Assembly: GCA_017404725.1 (NCBI GenBank)
Contig: JAFRBS010000029.1
Span: 1-64,000, forward strand
DNA: 64,000 bases
Source: Candidatus Saccharimonadota bacterium
GTDB taxonomy: Bacteria; Patescibacteriota; Saccharimonadia; Saccharimonadales; Saccharimonadaceae
Direction: 5' to 3'
Below the pieces are notes generated by a model. That model was not told where the DNA came from and did not search any database. It saw only the letters and a program-made list of their open reading frames with translations. Each line of letters starts with the position of its first letter. The first letter of the stretch is position 1. The position numbers and the translations under genes were made by a program. Shown here piece after piece: positions 1-5,172 of the stretch.

Positions 1-155
1 TCCGCCCAGCTTCAGATCTTCCGTCATCCAACAATTTCCATCAGCCAATTTCCGCACAGTATAAGTCTTTACATTCGCTCCAGACGTCACGGGATTGGCG
101 CTCGTCCCTGTTCCGTCCAAGCCGCGAATGTCGTACAATGTCGTTTAAGCGACAT
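1..155 (-). pseudogene. Silent FISUMP-domain cassette A (runs off left edge)
   Basis: Reading the minus strand from 155 leftward gives an open FISUMP (Fibrobacter succinogenes major paralogous domain) frame with residues TTLYDIRGLDGTG, KTYTVRKLADGNCWMTEDL and KLGG. It continues past the window edge. It has no start codon, ribosome site or promoter. The same frame hits a TAA stop immediately upstream (V-A-stop-T-T-L-Y-D), where the expressed copy at 1401 has V-A-Q-T-T-L-Y-D. By eye it differs from cassette C (3651-3803) at only about ten of the first 150 bases. I infer a silent donor cassette rather than ordinary decay, because its boundary coincides exactly with the palindrome at 138-155. Plain gene fragment is the alternative. 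Confidence 0.7.
138..155 (-). repeat. Palindromic cassette-boundary site A
   Basis: The minus strand reads ATGTCG-CTTAAA-CGACAT, a 6-bp inverted repeat around a 6-bp spacer. It is followed by TGTACGACATTCG, which contains a third CGACAT half-site. The identical core occurs at 3786-3803 (minus), and a variant with spacer CACAAA lies inside the expressed gene at 1401-1418 (plus). The TAA inside the CTTAAA spacer closes the cassette frame. The layout resembles a crossover site for a tyrosine recombinase or invertase. That role is inference. Confidence 0.6.
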
Positions 156-170
156 TAAGCAAAAATCGAG

Positions 171-258
171 ACAACCCCCCAAAAATCCCCAAAAAACCAA
201 AAACCAACAAAAACCTCCAAAAATAAACCAAAATCCAACAAAAAATCCCACAAAATTT
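171..258. other. G-free A/C-rich tract (T/G-rich on minus strand)
   Basis: No G occurs on the plus strand from 171 to 258. The tract is runs of A broken by CC, CCC, CCCC and CCCCCC. On the minus strand it lies directly upstream of cassette A and includes G4 and G6 runs near 175-190, with further GG pairs. Such a tract could favour a G-quadruplex or R-loop next to the recombination site. It also abuts the promoter of the expressed FISUMP gene. Confidence 0.6.
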
Positions 259-286
259 GTATTTTTTATCGCGCATATGCTATAAT
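257..286 (+). promoter_or_regulatory. Promoter of expressed FISUMP gene
   Basis: TTGTAT at 257-262 and an extended TGC-TATAAT at 278-286 are spaced 18 bp. The start ATG (293) is only 7 nt after the -10 box, so the transcript should be leaderless or nearly so. If the 155-1401 segment inverts, this promoter travels with the N-terminal coding segment. Confidence 0.65.
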
Positions 287-292
287 GGAAAC

Positions 293-2074
293 ATGACAGA
301 GAAAAAAGAGGCGCATAAAGCCAGAGATATTTTCTTTAAGGTTGGGGCTGGTGTAGCTATCTTTGGGGTTGCGTTTTTCGTGACGTTCCTATCTTCTTCG
401 CATTTTATGCCAGTTTCGGAAAGCTCCGCGGAAACCACGGGCGATTATTATGCTAACATCACTAACACCGGTTCGATCGACATAAGCCTCGTGGCGACCC
501 CTGATGGAATTGGCAAGGTCGGCAAGGACACGCTCACGGTCGACACGAACGCGACCTCTGGGTACAAACTTTATCTCTCGACAGTCTCTACTGCCCCGAA
601 CAACATGCTTTATCTTTCGACCGATGACACGACCGGGCTGACCGCTACGACCGGCTCGATCGCGACCCCGTCTAAGCTCGCGCCGAACACTTGGGGCTAC
701 GCGCCTTCGCGCTCTACCCCTTCGGACACTGCCGTTTCTTATACCGACGCCGCGGCCGACGCCGTAACAGGGAGCGCCGTGTTTATTGGTGTGCCTGAGT
801 ATGGCGACGAAAACATTATCTATACGAACGACACGCCTACCGTTTCCGGCTCAAACACCATCGACGTCTATTACGGCGTGAACGCCTCAACAGCCCTGCC
901 TTCAGGGGAATATTCGAATACGGTCGTGTATACCGCCATAGTAGACGCAATAAATCCAGACAGCGAAGACGTCACGATCTCCCCAGTTTCCCAGAACAGC
1001 CTCAGCGCCGGCACAACCGTTATAATCTCTACCGGACTTTACCCTGGCTTTGCCGCCTCTGATATGGGTACAATCTCCGTAGCGCTCGGAGGAAATGCCT
1101 GCACGAACGTCACCCCGTCCATCGGCGCAAACGGAAACCTCGTAGTTACCTGTAATACTCCTGCCGCCGCAGAAGCCGGCTCGGTTGACGTCGTCGTGAC
1201 CGTCGCGAAGTACGGAAAGACCTATACTTTGACGGGTGGGTATGAGTATATTAATCCATTGCCAGATTTTTACACAATTTCAACAATGCAGGAGATGACA
1301 AGTAGCGTTTGTAATTCCGTCCCAACGCCATCAGCGTCCGCTACAACGTCCATGACGGCCGAAAATTATGATTCAACTCAACTTGTGGCCGGCGGGTCTT
1401 ATGTCGCACAAACGACATTGTACGACATTCGGGACAATAATTCATACATTGTTCGGAAGTTATCCGACGGAAGCTGTTGGATGACCCAAGACCTTAAGCT
1501 CGGTGGCAGCTCCGCCGTAACCTTAACCACAGAAAATTCTGATCTTCCAGAGGGCTCAGCAAACTGGACTCTAAACACTGAGAATACTGGTACTTGGTGT
1601 ACCGATCAAACCGCCGCTTGTTATAACCAACAGCTAATGCTAAAGACTGGTGTCCCTAACGGTTATCTCTACAACTGGTACGCGGCTACCGCCGGCACAG
1701 GCGTCTACGGTACAGGCGCAGGAAGCGAAGCTACGGCAAGCATCTGTCCAAAAGGCTGGAAACTACCAACTGGTGGTCCATCTAGTCAGTTTGCGAACCT
1801 CGACATCGCCTACGGCGGCTCAGGTTCTAACCGTACCGGCGATACGTCGCAAGTCACAAAATTCCTAGCCTCGCCCCTTAACTTTAATTATACCGGCTAC
1901 CGCAATGGCGGCTCGGTCAACTTCCCGTCAGACTACGCGCTCTACTGGTCGTCTACGGCGGGTTCCGAGGTGTACGCGTACAACTTGTACTTCCACTCCG
2001 GTGGCTACTTCGACCCTCAGGCCTACAACTACAAGTACGTCGGATTTGCCGTACGCTGCGTAGCCGCCTCCTAG
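293..2074 (+). CDS. Surface-anchored FISUMP (lectin-like) protein, expressed copy
   Basis: This 593-aa protein has an N-terminal membrane anchor or signal (about residues 13-37), then Thr/Ser-rich beta-type repeats. An IPT/TIG-like Ig fold follows at about 225-321, and a C-terminal FISUMP domain at about 376-593 carries CWMTQDL, YLYNWYAA, SICPKGWKLP and a YWSS...GFAVRC end. It should be displayed outside the cell, probably for adhesion or recognition; that function is inferred. I start it at ATG 293 rather than the upstream TTG because TATAAT sits at 281-286. The palindrome at 1401-1418 encodes YVAQTT exactly at the border between stalk and FISUMP domain. The same border starts the silent cassettes on the opposite strand, so the C-terminal domain looks exchangeable by inversion. 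Confidence 0.85.
   Translation: MTEKKEAHKARDIFFKVGAGVAIFGVAFFVTFLSSSHFMPVSESSAETTGDYYANITNTGSIDISLVATPDGIGKVGKDTLTVDTNATSGYKLYLSTVSTAPNNMLYLSTDDTTGLTATTGSIATPSKLAPNTWGYAPSRSTPSDTAVSYTDAAADAVTGSAVFIGVPEYGDENIIYTNDTPTVSGSNTIDVYYGVNASTALPSGEYSNTVVYTAIVDAINPDSEDVTISPVSQNSLSAGTTVIISTGLYPGFAASDMGTISVALGGNACTNVTPSIGANGNLVVTCNTPAAAEAGSVDVVVTVAKYGKTYTLTGGYEYINPLPDFYTISTMQEMTSSVCNSVPTPSASATTSMTAENYDSTQLVAGGSYVAQTTLYDIRDNNSYIVRKLSDGSCWMTQDLKLGGSSAVTLTTENSDLPEGSANWTLNTENTGTWCTDQTAACYNQQLMLKTGVPNGYLYNWYAATAGTGVYGTGAGSEATASICPKGWKLPTGGPSSQFANLDIAYGGSGSNRTGDTSQVTKFLASPLNFNYTGYRNGGSVNFPSDYALYWSSTAGSEVYAYNLYFHSGGYFDPQAYNYKYVGFAVRCVAAS
1401..1418 (+). repeat. Palindromic site B inside the expressed FISUMP gene
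   Basis: The sequence is ATGTCG-CACAAA-CGACAT in frame (Tyr-Val-Ala-Gln-Thr-Thr), followed by TGTACGACATTCG as in cassette A. It is inverted relative to sites A (138-155) and C (3786-3803). Only two spacer bases differ from the silent sites (CAC versus CTT), and these turn TAA into CAA. A crossover to the right of them would join the stalk to either cassette in frame and leave the stop behind. Confidence 0.6.
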
Positions 2075-2169
2075 GTCGCTTTCGCGTAGCTTTAGTTTAC
2101 TTCTGCCGACTCGCCGTCTCAAAAACCTTGGCATTTCGTTAATAAATGACGTTATCCATAGATGCCCGG

Positions 2170-2313
2170 CTATTTGATTTTCACGGCCTTTTTCAAGACT
2201 TCCTGCTGGTCTTTATAAGTGGCTTCAAGAGCTTTCTGAAAAATAGCACGAACAGCCGGACTGGGATTCTTCGCGACTAGATCCCTGGCGGTAACTGATT
2301 TTCTCGGGGCCAT
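2170..2313 (-). CDS. 47-aa partner of zeta-like kinase (possible antitoxin)
   Basis: This small ORF begins MAPRKSVTARDLVAKNPSPA and ends in a Lys-rich tail (KKAVKIK). It starts at ATG 2313 behind AAAGGAG, with a 6-nt spacer. The ribosome site lies inside the last codons of the kinase gene, and only one base separates the kinase stop (2315) from this ATG, so translation is probably coupled. Its length, basic character and tight linkage to a zeta-type toxin suggest an antitoxin or accessory protein. Known epsilon/PezA antitoxins lie upstream of zeta, so the order here is reversed and the role is inferred. It falls within the segment between sites B and C. Confidence 0.6.
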   Translation of the reverse strand: MAPRKSVTARDLVAKNPSPAVRAIFQKALEATYKDQQEVLKKAVKIK

Positions 2314-2314
2314 G

Positions 2315-3010
2315 CTATTCTCCTTTAATATATTTAATCAACTTATCTTTATTATATTCCAGTTTTACAAATTCGTCAATTTCTGAGAAATCCATGTTGT
2401 CATACCATACGCCGATGCGATTATCTGCGGTTTTAACAACAATATCAATAGAAATTTGGCCATGGAATTCCTGATAGATCTTTTTCAGATTTTCCAAGGT
2501 ATTATAATAAACCTTAATGAACCCACCAAATTTAATTGCGCGATGTTCGATTTTCTCGCGTGCCTTAGTAAATTCCCAGGCTGTCTTTGGATCCTGGTAT
2601 GTATAAATTATTTTAACCATGTAGCCGTGTTTAAGCGTACGCTCAATATTAGTTTTAGCCTTTGGACTACCAAAAGTACCGTCCATGATAAAGTCAAGGT
2701 TATGGTACAGGGCGTAACTAAAAACTTCGCTAAGCAGTGTCGTTGCGCCAAGTCGGAATCTGTCCGCTTCTTTTGGGTCATAATTTTCAATTTGGGAAGC
2801 GATTTCGTCCATATCTATACGGACGAAGTTAATTTTGGAAAAGTCAATGATATTTTTAGAAAGTTCAGTTTTACCGGCGCCAGGTAGCCCAGCCATAAAA
2901 ATCGCCGTTGGGTCGTTTTGAGGTTCTGCTCCAGAGGCCTCGACAAGAGCTTTGACAAATTCTCGTCTATGTTGTTTTGCCCAAAGTGCTGCTGGATTTT
3001 CTGTTGTCAT
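2315..3010 (-). CDS. Zeta-toxin-like P-loop kinase
   Basis: This 231-aa protein has a Walker A motif GLPGAGKT at residues 41-48, then a FVRIDMDEI segment at 62-70 and DGTFG at 110-114. That is the arrangement of zeta toxin/PezT family kinases, which phosphorylate UDP-N-acetylglucosamine-type sugars and block wall synthesis. Whether this one is toxic cannot be seen. It is followed one base later by a 47-aa gene. It lies between the expressed FISUMP gene and cassette C, inside the segment that would invert if sites B and C recombine, and could penalise loss of the locus. A plain nucleotide or aminoglycoside kinase of the same superfamily is the alternative. Confidence 0.75.
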   Translation of the reverse strand: MTTENPAALWAKQHRREFVKALVEASGAEPQNDPTAIFMAGLPGAGKTELSKNIIDFSKINFVRIDMDEIASQIENYDPKEADRFRLGATTLLSEVFSYALYHNLDFIMDGTFGSPKAKTNIERTLKHGYMVKIIYTYQDPKTAWEFTKAREKIEHRAIKFGGFIKVYYNTLENLKKIYQEFHGQISIDIVVKTADNRIGVWYDNMDFSEIDEFVKLEYNKDKLIKYIKGE

Positions 3011-3087
3011 GATTATATTATATCAAAGTTTTTAGACGATCTTTGGGCCCCTGCTTCTATTTGGTGGTTTTAAGGCTGAGAAAACGG

Positions 3088-3803
3088 TTAGGACGATGCG
3101 GCGAGGCAGCGGATGGCGTAGCCGGTAAACTTACTGCTGCTAAACTGGAGTATGAAATTGCCGCCAATGCGAAAGTCGAAACGAAACGCATTTATCTCAG
3201 TAGTATTTGCGGTGCGCGACCAATAGCTTGCGCGATTTACTGTGCTAGAAACCGTGCCATCCACGTAGCCAGTATAGTTAAAGGATAGGGGGTCAGCTGT
3301 AAACTTAGCTACCCACGATACATCCGATCTATTCTCACCACTTCCACCATAGGCGACATCGAGAGTGGCAAACTGACCGCCGGAGCCACCAGTTGGTAAT
3401 TTCCAACCCTTAGGACAAATGGAGCCCGCCGCGTTATCGGAAGTCAGCTCATACGTTCCCGTTCCAGCTGTAGCAGTATACCAGTTGTAGAGATACCCGT
3501 TAGGAACCCCCGTCTTAATCCATAGGCTCTGGTTATCACAGGCTGCGGAATCAGTGTCGCACCACGTCCCCGTATTCTCCACTGGCAAGGTATAGGTTGT
3601 GCCTTGCGCAAGATCCGTTTCACTAGACGTCAACGTCACAGCAGAGTTTCCGCCCAGTTTCAAGTCTTCCGTCATCCAACAATTTCCATCAGCCAATTTC
3701 CGCACAGTATAAGTCTTTACATTCGCTCCAGAAGTCACTGGATTCGCGCTCGTACCTGTTCCGTCTAGGCCGCGAACGTCGTACAATGTCGTTTAAGCGA
3801 CAT
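3088..3803 (-). pseudogene. Silent FISUMP-domain cassette C
   Basis: An open minus-strand frame runs from the palindrome at 3786-3803 to a TAA at 3088. It encodes a complete FISUMP domain (KTYTVRKLADGNCWMTEDL, YLYNWYTATAGTGTY, SICPKGWKLPTGG, GYAIRCLAASS). It has no signal peptide, stalk, RBS or in-frame ATG near its 5' end, and a TAA precedes it. It closely matches cassette A over the shared part and, more loosely, the expressed domain at 1432-2074. The frame after the palindrome matches the expressed gene, so inversion of 1401-3803 would yield an intact stalk-FISUMP fusion. I infer a reservoir cassette. If translated alone from TTG, the product would lack an export signal. Confidence 0.75.
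3786..3803 (-). repeat. Palindromic cassette-boundary site C
   Basis: The minus strand reads ATGTCG-CTTAAA-CGACAT, identical to site A, and is followed by TGTACGACGTTCG. It marks the 5' edge of cassette C, is inverted relative to site B and lies in direct orientation with site A. A-C recombination would therefore delete the expressed gene, while B-C would invert the segment carrying the zeta-like pair. Confidence 0.6.
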
Positions 3804-3855: not shown

Positions 3856-5172
3856 GTGCGAAATCTAAGGCGAAAATTTGGGATTTTTGGAATCGTCCTA
3901 GCGGCATTCTTTGCTGTTGCTGGCTTTGCGCATTTTGACGAGACGAAAGCGATTTCGGTTTCGGGGAACGTTAAGGTCCAGGCGGAGATTACTCCTTCGG
4001 TTTCGATGCAGATCCAAAGTCCGAACGATAATGATCCGACTTGCGTAGCAGAGAGCGGGGCGAAACCGTCTTGTGCATCGCTTGCCATGGAGCCGGACAC
4101 TTATAATTCCAGCTATTCAGATATCACGGTCTATACGAACAACTACAGCGGCTATTCTCTGACGGTCGAGGCGGCGGACCCGAACTTAACCAACGTTTCG
4201 GACAGCACGCTTACTATTCCGACGGGGATTTTGGCGGAAAGCGGTGGCTCGGTTCCGGGCGGACAGAACAAATGGTCGTTTAAATCGGACGGGTATATCG
4301 AAAAATGGACGGCGATGTCCTCAAGTCCGATCACTGTCGTGGCGTATAACAGCCCGGTCCCAGAAGGGAACACTACGCGGGTTACTTACGGAATTTCCTC
4401 GGGGACTAACCCGGTCGGCGTCTATAGCACGACTTTGACATATACCGCGACGGTTTACGACGGCGCTAACCCGGCGACGGAGGAAGTCGCGTATATGCAG
4501 GGCTTTGTCTGCGGTTCGCTTGGCCAGGGCGAAACGACGACGCTTATGGACCGGCGCGATCGAAAGACGTATGCAGTTTCGCGATTGGCCGATGGGCTTT
4601 GTTGGATGGGCGAGGATCTCCAGCTCGGCGGCGATTATGATATGCAGTTGACCTCTGATTTGTCCGACGTCACTACGAGTTTCACGCTTAAGGCAGAAGA
4701 TACTTCGGAATGGTGCACAACGAACTCAGCAGAATGTACCGACCAATCGCTAATGCGAAAAACCGGCGGAACGGGCACAAATTACGCGCCGACGTACCTC
4801 TATAACTGGTACGCAGTCACAGCCGGCGGCGGAACTTACAATACGACTTCCGGCATGGTCGAAAGCTCAATTTGTCCGAAAGGCTGGAAACCGCCGCACG
4901 GCGGAACCGGCATCGGCTCATTCGCATCAATCACGGCGACATATAATACCGTAGCCGCGCTGACCACTCAGCCGCTCCCAGGTTTCAACTTCACCGGTTT
5001 CAGAACGGGCGCGACGGTCAACTACCCTTCGACGGGCGGCTATTATTGGGCTCGCTCAGCGGTCGACGCGCTGAACGCGAATTACCTGGTCTTCCACTCG
5101 AATGTAGTCAATCCACAAAACACCGCACAAAAATATTACGGCTTTGCGCTACGTTGCGTGTCGACGCTCTAG
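3856..5172 (+). CDS. Surface FISUMP protein, fixed paralogue
   Basis: This 438-aa protein has a signal peptide or anchor (GIFGIVLAAFFAVAGFA, about residues 9-25), a beta-rich stalk to about residue 215, and a C-terminal FISUMP domain. The domain carries GLCWMGEDLQLGG, YLYNWYAV, SICPKGWKPP and YYWARS...GFALRC. The only in-frame start is GTG 3856, with GGAGGA two to three bases upstream, so spacing is short. It lacks the ATGTCG-N6-CGACAT palindrome (the matching peptide is GETTTLMDRRD), so it should not take part in cassette exchange. It converges on truB with an 8-bp gap. It probably acts in surface recognition, with ligand unknown. Confidence 0.8.
   Translation: MRNLRRKFGIFGIVLAAFFAVAGFAHFDETKAISVSGNVKVQAEITPSVSMQIQSPNDNDPTCVAESGAKPSCASLAMEPDTYNSSYSDITVYTNNYSGYSLTVEAADPNLTNVSDSTLTIPTGILAESGGSVPGGQNKWSFKSDGYIEKWTAMSSSPITVVAYNSPVPEGNTTRVTYGISSGTNPVGVYSTTLTYTATVYDGANPATEEVAYMQGFVCGSLGQGETTTLMDRRDRKTYAVSRLADGLCWMGEDLQLGGDYDMQLTSDLSDVTTSFTLKAEDTSEWCTTNSAECTDQSLMRKTGGTGTNYAPTYLYNWYAVTAGGGTYNTTSGMVESSICPKGWKPPHGGTGIGSFASITATYNTVAALTTQPLPGFNFTGFRTGATVNYPSTGGYYWARSAVDALNANYLVFHSNVVNPQNTAQKYYGFALRCVSTL

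Follow-up and report, generated by a model that had tools for sequence, protein, structure and literature searches.

A likely inversion switch of surface-protein heads at dif-like sites in Saccharibacteria

Introduction

Does a complete surface-protein gene that faces startless copies of its own C-terminal domain belong to a DNA switch that exchanges the head of the protein? The locus that raises this question lies at the start of a 64,000-nucleotide stretch of DNA (the window) from a Candidatus Saccharimonadota genome (G000; 739 kb in 32 contigs). We consider it likely that the locus is a working site-specific inversion switch of surface-protein heads. The sites, their arms and spacers, their arrangement, the open frames and the pattern of template and variable repeats are shown; inversion itself, its catalysis by Xer and a change of surface phenotype are all inferred, without support from reads. 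The organism is tiny and probably parasitic. It is still unclear by what means such episymbiotic Saccharibacteria recognise their hosts, move to new ones or evade phages, and the locus offers a testable system of surface variation for this question.

Results

Layout of the locus

The features of the locus are listed below in window coordinates.

1-155, minus strand: silent startless FISUMP cassette A, truncated by the contig end so that only its 5' part is present
128-155, minus strand: switch site A, silent, ATGTCGCTTAA-ACGACA-TTGTACGACAT, with an in-frame TAA in the left arm
293-2074, plus strand: coding sequence of the expressed FISUMP gene, 593-aa product, with site E in frame inside it
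293-1400, plus strand: constant part, consisting of an N-terminal membrane/signal segment and the stalk
1401-1428, plus strand: switch site E of the expressed gene, ATGTCGCACAA-ACGACA-TTGTACGACAT, encoding ..YVAQTTLYDI.. (left arm 1401-1411, spacer 1412-1417, right arm 1418-1428)
1418-2074, plus strand: expressed FISUMP cassette (PF09603 / TIGR02145)
1887-2070, plus strand: variable region (VR) of a diversity-generating retroelement (DGR) in the expressed cassette, copied from the template repeat TR1 on contig C24
2170-2313, minus strand: 47-aa open reading frame directly downstream of the zeta-like gene, no function assigned
2315-3010, minus strand: zeta-toxin/AAA kinase-like gene, inside the putatively invertible E-C segment
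3088-3803, minus strand: silent startless FISUMP cassette C, with an open frame, tail-to-tail with the expressed cassette
3776-3803, minus strand: switch site C, silent, ATGTCGCTTAA-ACGACA-TTGTACGACGT, with an in-frame TAA in the left arm
3856-5172, plus strand: neighbouring complete FISUMP gene without a switch site, for comparison

The identity of the window domains as FISUMP rests on matches to both the PF09603 and the TIGR02145 profiles; no PDB homologue of the domain was found by sequence, and its AlphaFold model (pLDDT 34.5) is unusable, which leaves a C-type-lectin fold as a mere possibility. Cassette A is 93% identical to the start of cassette C. A TATAAT box can be read in the sequence (window 262-293), although a promoter scan did not return it. 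About 7 bases separate its end from the start codon of the switch gene, a spacing that may indicate a leaderless transcript, as inferred from sequence alone. FISUMP genes are numerous in G000 and most lack the site. Long near-identical internal stretches are common to the cassettes of this genome and the assembly is broken there, with ten contig ends falling inside FISUMP cassettes. An earlier sequence-only reading, which had proposed an inversion switch here, suggested looking for more cassettes to the left of the window; contig C19 ends at base 1 of the window, and an extra cassette was found elsewhere, on C32 beside ruvC. Its distance and orientation to the window are not established.

The zeta-toxin-like gene and the 47-aa frame (2170-3010) lie within the E-C segment and also between the direct-orientation sites A and C. 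One could speculate that a toxin-antitoxin pair at this place penalises deletion.

The repeat unit is a 28-bp site

The sequence-only reading reported three copies of the palindrome ATGTCG-N6-CGACAT, and these are present exactly where it placed them (138-155, 1401-1418 and 3786-3803), with 0.08 matches expected from shuffles at up to one mismatch. It was also correct that the copy at 1401 is in frame at the stalk/domain border of the expressed FISUMP protein, and that each of the two minus-strand copies (at 155 and at 3803) is followed by a FISUMP frame that has no start of its own and carries an in-frame TAA. Across the whole G000 genome there are four copies; the fourth, at C32:12893 next to ruvC, likewise marks the 5' edge of a FISUMP cassette without a start.

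The claim that failed is that the palindrome is the repeat unit. The 31-bp inverted repeats in the window and the alignment of the borders in relatives define the recombination unit as a 28-bp site of 11-6-11 form, with the consensus ATGTCGCACAA-NNNACA-TTGTACGACAT across borders; the silent window copies have the joint form ATGTCGCTTAA-ACGACA-TTGTACGAC(A/G)T. The CGACAT half is made of the spacer and the start of the right arm. Relatives keep the 11-6-11 arms and not the CGACAT symmetry, so the palindrome was rejected as the functional unit; it arises incidentally from the spacer ACGACA. When the genus was searched with the exact 18-bp pattern, only single scattered matches in five other genomes were returned, and it was the corrected pattern that revealed the family. 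One more site in G000, the fifth, lies close to the end of C8 and has a different spacer (GCAACA).

The homology of the cassettes starts exactly at the first base of the 28-bp site, and the flanks are unrelated. Non-coding copies of the site keep the DNA sequence, and other FISUMP genes (L052, L072, L017) use other codons for the same region.

Switch sites have the arms of dif and a spacer of their own

The putative chromosomal dif of G000 (C24:25965) is ATGTCGCACAA-TGTATA-TTTTACGACAT, and the arms of the switch sites match it at 11/11 positions on the left and 10/11 on the right. Every switch genome has one such putative dif, single-copy and intergenic; in G000 it lies beside a VirD4-like gene. 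Two further genomes, G093 and G103, carry a single-copy ATGTCGCAAAA-TATGTA-TTGTGCGACAT beside the same VirD4-like gene as in G000, and single-copy sites of similar type occur across Patescibacteria. That the C24:25965 type is the chromosomal dif is inferred from its form, copy number, intergenic place and conservation. The switch sites have dif arms and never the dif spacer.

Spacers are identical in all seven local pairs of sites (p=0.0009 with spacers shuffled within genomes; 0 of 200,000 when all sites are shuffled), although three of the seven pairs lie in the window and are not independent. The spacers found are ACGACA, GCAACA, CGCACA, GCTACA, CATACA, TCTACA, CGTACA, CGTACC and TCTACC. 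Each is one free codon followed by ACA or ACC, and its first three bases encode the X in YVAQ-X-TLYDIRD. The same spacer can recur at distant loci, and heads could conceivably be exchanged between those too.

Three side observations concern site-like sequences elsewhere. A second stalk with the same linker (C11:59083; in L129, which is G000 C11:56000-62000, stalk 1943-3124 and site 3084-3111) ends at a perfectly palindromic ATGTCGCACAA-GGTTGC-TTGTGCGACAT, with a stop 9 codons later and no head domain. This site was considered as the chromosomal dif of G000 and rejected once C24:25965 was found; it might record the loss of a whole cassette segment by deletion, and simple inversion does not explain it. 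In G156 a silent flank with its site (spacer CGTACA) is repeated outside FISUMP loci, at C4:186 (L259) and C8:27057, and at C4 the site leads into sequence other than a FISUMP domain. Ten IMG/VR viral contigs (L261-L270) also contain dif-like sites of the Patescibacteria type, possibly as places of Xer-dependent integration; no FISUMP cassettes were found in the IMG/VR contigs scanned.

The same arrangement is found in relatives

Four congeneric Saccharibacteria have this site too, likewise at the stalk/domain border, which makes five species with the window species, and both coding and non-coding copies occur. According to a GTDB contig scan, these relatives are MAGs from goat ileum, goat duodenum and water-deer ileum, together with SRR10912535_bin.47. 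A search of 174 genomes of the genus with the corrected site pattern (one match with a control pattern) returned multi-copy sites in G000, G018 and G019, whereas G156 had three loci with a full match and G112 a single one; a search allowing three mismatches added further sites in G156.

G156 and G018, which are among the genomes of the genus that match the cassettes best, have tail-to-tail pairs in which a full gene (stalk and domain) faces a startless domain, as in the window. The inverted repeats in these pairs are 86-106 nt long and begin at the domain border, and resolved pairs share 26-46 identical bases. Each cassette has one site, at the 5' edge only, and expressed-silent pairs on one contig are all inverted (E-A, E-C, G156 C3 and C5, G018 C2 and C9). 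Sites A and C are in direct orientation to each other, and recombination between them would be predicted to delete the stalk.

Computed inversion products are open and silent cassettes look selected

Inversion products were computed with the crossover inside the spacer. In the window, the E x C product has a 629-codon open frame from the stalk through cassette C, and the E x A product is open as far as the contig end. The products in G156 and G018 have 609, 688, 288 and 430 codons, so that full-length fusions were computed in all five complete cases, the one of 288 codons being cut by its contig. It had been claimed that the stop codon would be left behind after a crossover, and this holds in the computed window products: in each of them the TAA in the left arm of the silent site remains attached to the silent flank. 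Just before the silent site of G018 C9 there is a terminator-like hairpin with a 12-bp stem, which perhaps does the same job as the TAA in the window.

The silent cassettes have intact frames and pN/pS values of 0.26-0.56, comparisons of silent with silent cassettes included; these values are approximate, since synonymous sites are near saturation. The silent cassettes therefore look selected and are likely to be translated at times, an inference from sequence alone. In G018 alone the assembly shows a fork: a stalk flank (C3) and a silent flank (C13) become identical from 2 bp ahead of the site and have exactly 141 nt in common up to both contig ends. Such a convergence could reflect mixed orientation, with two flanks leading into one cassette, and also fits two cassettes with identical 5' ends.

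Retroelements diversify the head

What the sequence-only reading missed is that the C-terminus of the head, about 60 residues, is the variable region of a DGR. G000 has three RVT_1 reverse transcriptases (RT), and on C24 and C23 the order is target cassette, accessory ORF, RT and template repeat. The accessory (Avd-like) ORF is in the right position and has no Pfam or NCBIfam match. Between TR1 and the expressed head of the window, mismatches fall at 19/52 TR adenines vs 2/132 other bases. TR1 also fits five other heads and TR2 fits one (25/63 vs 4/200); cassette C is at present a VR of neither template.

The target half next to TR2 (C23) and the silent ruvC cassette (C32) have an exact overlap of 100 nt, from which we infer that the retroelement's own target is a startless cassette with the ACGACA spacer of the window. 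The DGR target of G018 (TR/VR 20/61 vs 2/152) continues into a silent CGCACA cassette on C11. The two contigs overlap by 119 nt and differ there at one base only, which corresponds to an adenine of the template, as would be expected if the silent cassette was undergoing diversification in that sample. The RT-adjacent DGR target is thus a silent site-bearing cassette in two species. Not every cassette is a current DGR target, since no clear direct TR match was found for G018 C9, G018 C2 or most G156 or G019 cassettes.

As further observations on the retroelements, TR and its VR share sequence beyond the stop codon, with a GC-rich hairpin at TR1 (L027 12060-12100; L036 near 4805), as in DGR target-recognition regions. 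A third DGR-like RT with an accessory ORF (L047 7826-11182, on C10) has another kind of target protein, one that contains repeats. In two species the ndk-xer gene pair has a DGR template next to it (L027 10420-12032 on C24; L236 2758-5503 on C5 of G001).

The conserved Xer is the candidate enzyme

The sequence-only reading suggested looking for a tyrosine or serine recombinase. A conserved Xer was found, and there is no dedicated recombinase gene at the window switch loci. Each of the 12 genomes tested has one Xer orthologue, 62-74% identical to the C24 protein, and other recombinases are only 24-35% identical to it; XerC, XerD and XerA models score equally. No tyrosine recombinase besides Xer was found in G156 or G112 (the latter genome being only 86% complete). 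A serine invertase was rejected as the enzyme because serine recombinases were not found in G000, G018 or G019. On these grounds the conserved Xer is the most parsimonious candidate, and a dedicated enzyme need not be assumed; this is an inference, and binding and recombination of the site by Xer are not shown. Xer at dif usually needs FtsK. This need counts against the model, and FtsK action at the switch sites is unknown.

Discussion

Proposed mechanism

In the proposed mechanism, a single promoter and stalk would be connected through a dif-like 28-bp site to whichever of several FISUMP heads is in use. The heads not in use would be kept as cassettes without a start, in inverted orientation, with a copy of the site at the 5' edge of each. 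Strand exchange, in the 6-bp spacer, would be carried out by the chromosomal Xer, a conserved tyrosine recombinase recruited to these mimics of dif. A flip of 1401-3803 would bring cassette C into position after the stalk; a flip of 155-1401 would do so for cassette A. The spacer would act as an address, in that sites of one locus match each other and not the chromosomal dif. The left arm would stay with its own flank, so that the TAA of the silent sites would never enter the expressed gene. Separately, DGRs would hypermutate the C-terminal ~60 residues of the head, the RT-adjacent targets in two species being silent site-bearing cassettes. The original claim that inversion joins promoter and stalk to cassettes A and C is supported by the relatives, the spacers, the dif arms, the computed fusions and the selection on cassettes; the flip is inferred and no reads bear on it.

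A bolder reading, which we would neither favour nor discount, is a two-tier machine. DGRs would hypermutate silent startless cassettes off-line, and the housekeeping Xer, by inversion at dif mimics, would bring them into use behind a single stalk; the one-codon spacer address would limit which cassette pairs with which stalk and would protect the chromosomal dif.

Alternative explanations

The best surviving alternative, although unlikely, is that silent cassettes are donors for homologous gene conversion, as in pilS-like systems, and that the site is only a block of homology. The long near-identical internal stretches between cassettes and the intactness of the silent copies speak for it. Against it, the homology sets in at the very first base of the dif-like site, next to flanks that are unrelated, spacers match by locus, and 26-46 identical bases are few for an exchange by RecA. 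Gene conversion may nevertheless operate alongside inversion.

It is very unlikely that the cassettes are truncated duplicates or pseudogenes in which the site is kept only as the protein motif YVAQxTLYDIRD. The motif is translated in expressed copies and FISUMP genes are many; however, non-coding copies keep the DNA, other FISUMP genes use other codons, the arms are those of dif, and the silent frames are open and selected. Also very unlikely are Xer-dependent mobile modules (Acinetobacter pdif- or IMEX-like) that carry heads mainly by integration and excision rather than inversion. This reading can draw on the dif-like sites in IMG/VR contigs, the G156 silent flank repeated without a FISUMP domain and the direct pair A-C; against it stand the single site per cassette, at the 5' edge only, and the inverted orientation of all local stalk-silent pairs. 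A terminator, attenuator or operator role for the palindrome, suggested by the hairpin and in-frame TAA before silent frames and by one copy that scores as terminator-like, is hardly tenable with no CGACAT palindrome in the other four species and with the sequence lying inside an expressed frame.

Implications and comparison with known systems

If the inversion switch is real, an essential chromosome-resolution recombinase could be turned to antigenic switching through nothing more than copies of its site in which the spacer is changed, and retroelement hypermutation and inversion could be stacked on one domain. The spacer rule predicts exchangeable cassettes in any related genome, and existing metagenome reads can test it. 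The sequence-only reading knew of no described case in this lineage; in the literature searched, which was mainly open-access and gives only a weak negative, we found none that joins DGR, shufflon/Xer and Saccharibacteria, and no link between DGRs and inversion. With that reservation, dif-armed sites inside a reading frame, locus-matched spacers and their union with DGR targets are apparently new.

Several known systems share parts of the design. CPR DGRs (PMC8144416, PMC10907252) likewise have an RT, TR/VR pairs with adenine-specific change and a variable C-terminus of a surface-type protein, and their accessory gene has a counterpart here in position at least; what differs is that the RT-adjacent target here is startless and carries a recombination site in two species. 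Acinetobacter pdif modules (PMC11705084) also have dif-like sites, variable spacers and a host Xer. Acinetobacter pdif sites flank whole plasmid modules; here there is one site per domain cassette, at its 5' edge and inside the reading frame. Single-recombinase Xer/dif systems (XerH, XerS, XerA; PMC5357621, PMC2958812) share the 28-bp 11-6-11 site and the conserved Xer, but the switch sites are multi-copy, in coding sequence and altered in their spacers, and the proposed outcome is inversion, not dimer resolution.

The likeness to shufflons that had been suggested holds for the logic and not for membership of the Rci (or Gin) family. As in the phage Mu G segment (Gin) and the R64 shufflon (Rci-sfx; PMC11852207 for shufflons), C-terminal domains with startless alternatives would be swapped behind a constant N-terminus at in-frame sites. 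Dif-type sites are used by neither enzyme: Gin belongs to the serine recombinases, and Rci acts on sfx sites.

The closest match is the mba locus and UU172 element of Ureaplasma parvum (PMC3599477, PMC3047005), where inversion driven by XerC has been shown (PMC3599477). There, as is proposed here, an Xer-type tyrosine recombinase inverts DNA at short inverted repeats and joins a constant N-terminus to alternative surface-protein parts. In Ureaplasma, XerC is separate from CodV, which binds the putative dif site, whereas here the sites have dif arms and the only common enzyme is the conserved Xer; the window-type sites also differ in their locus-coded spacers, and their heads are DGR targets.
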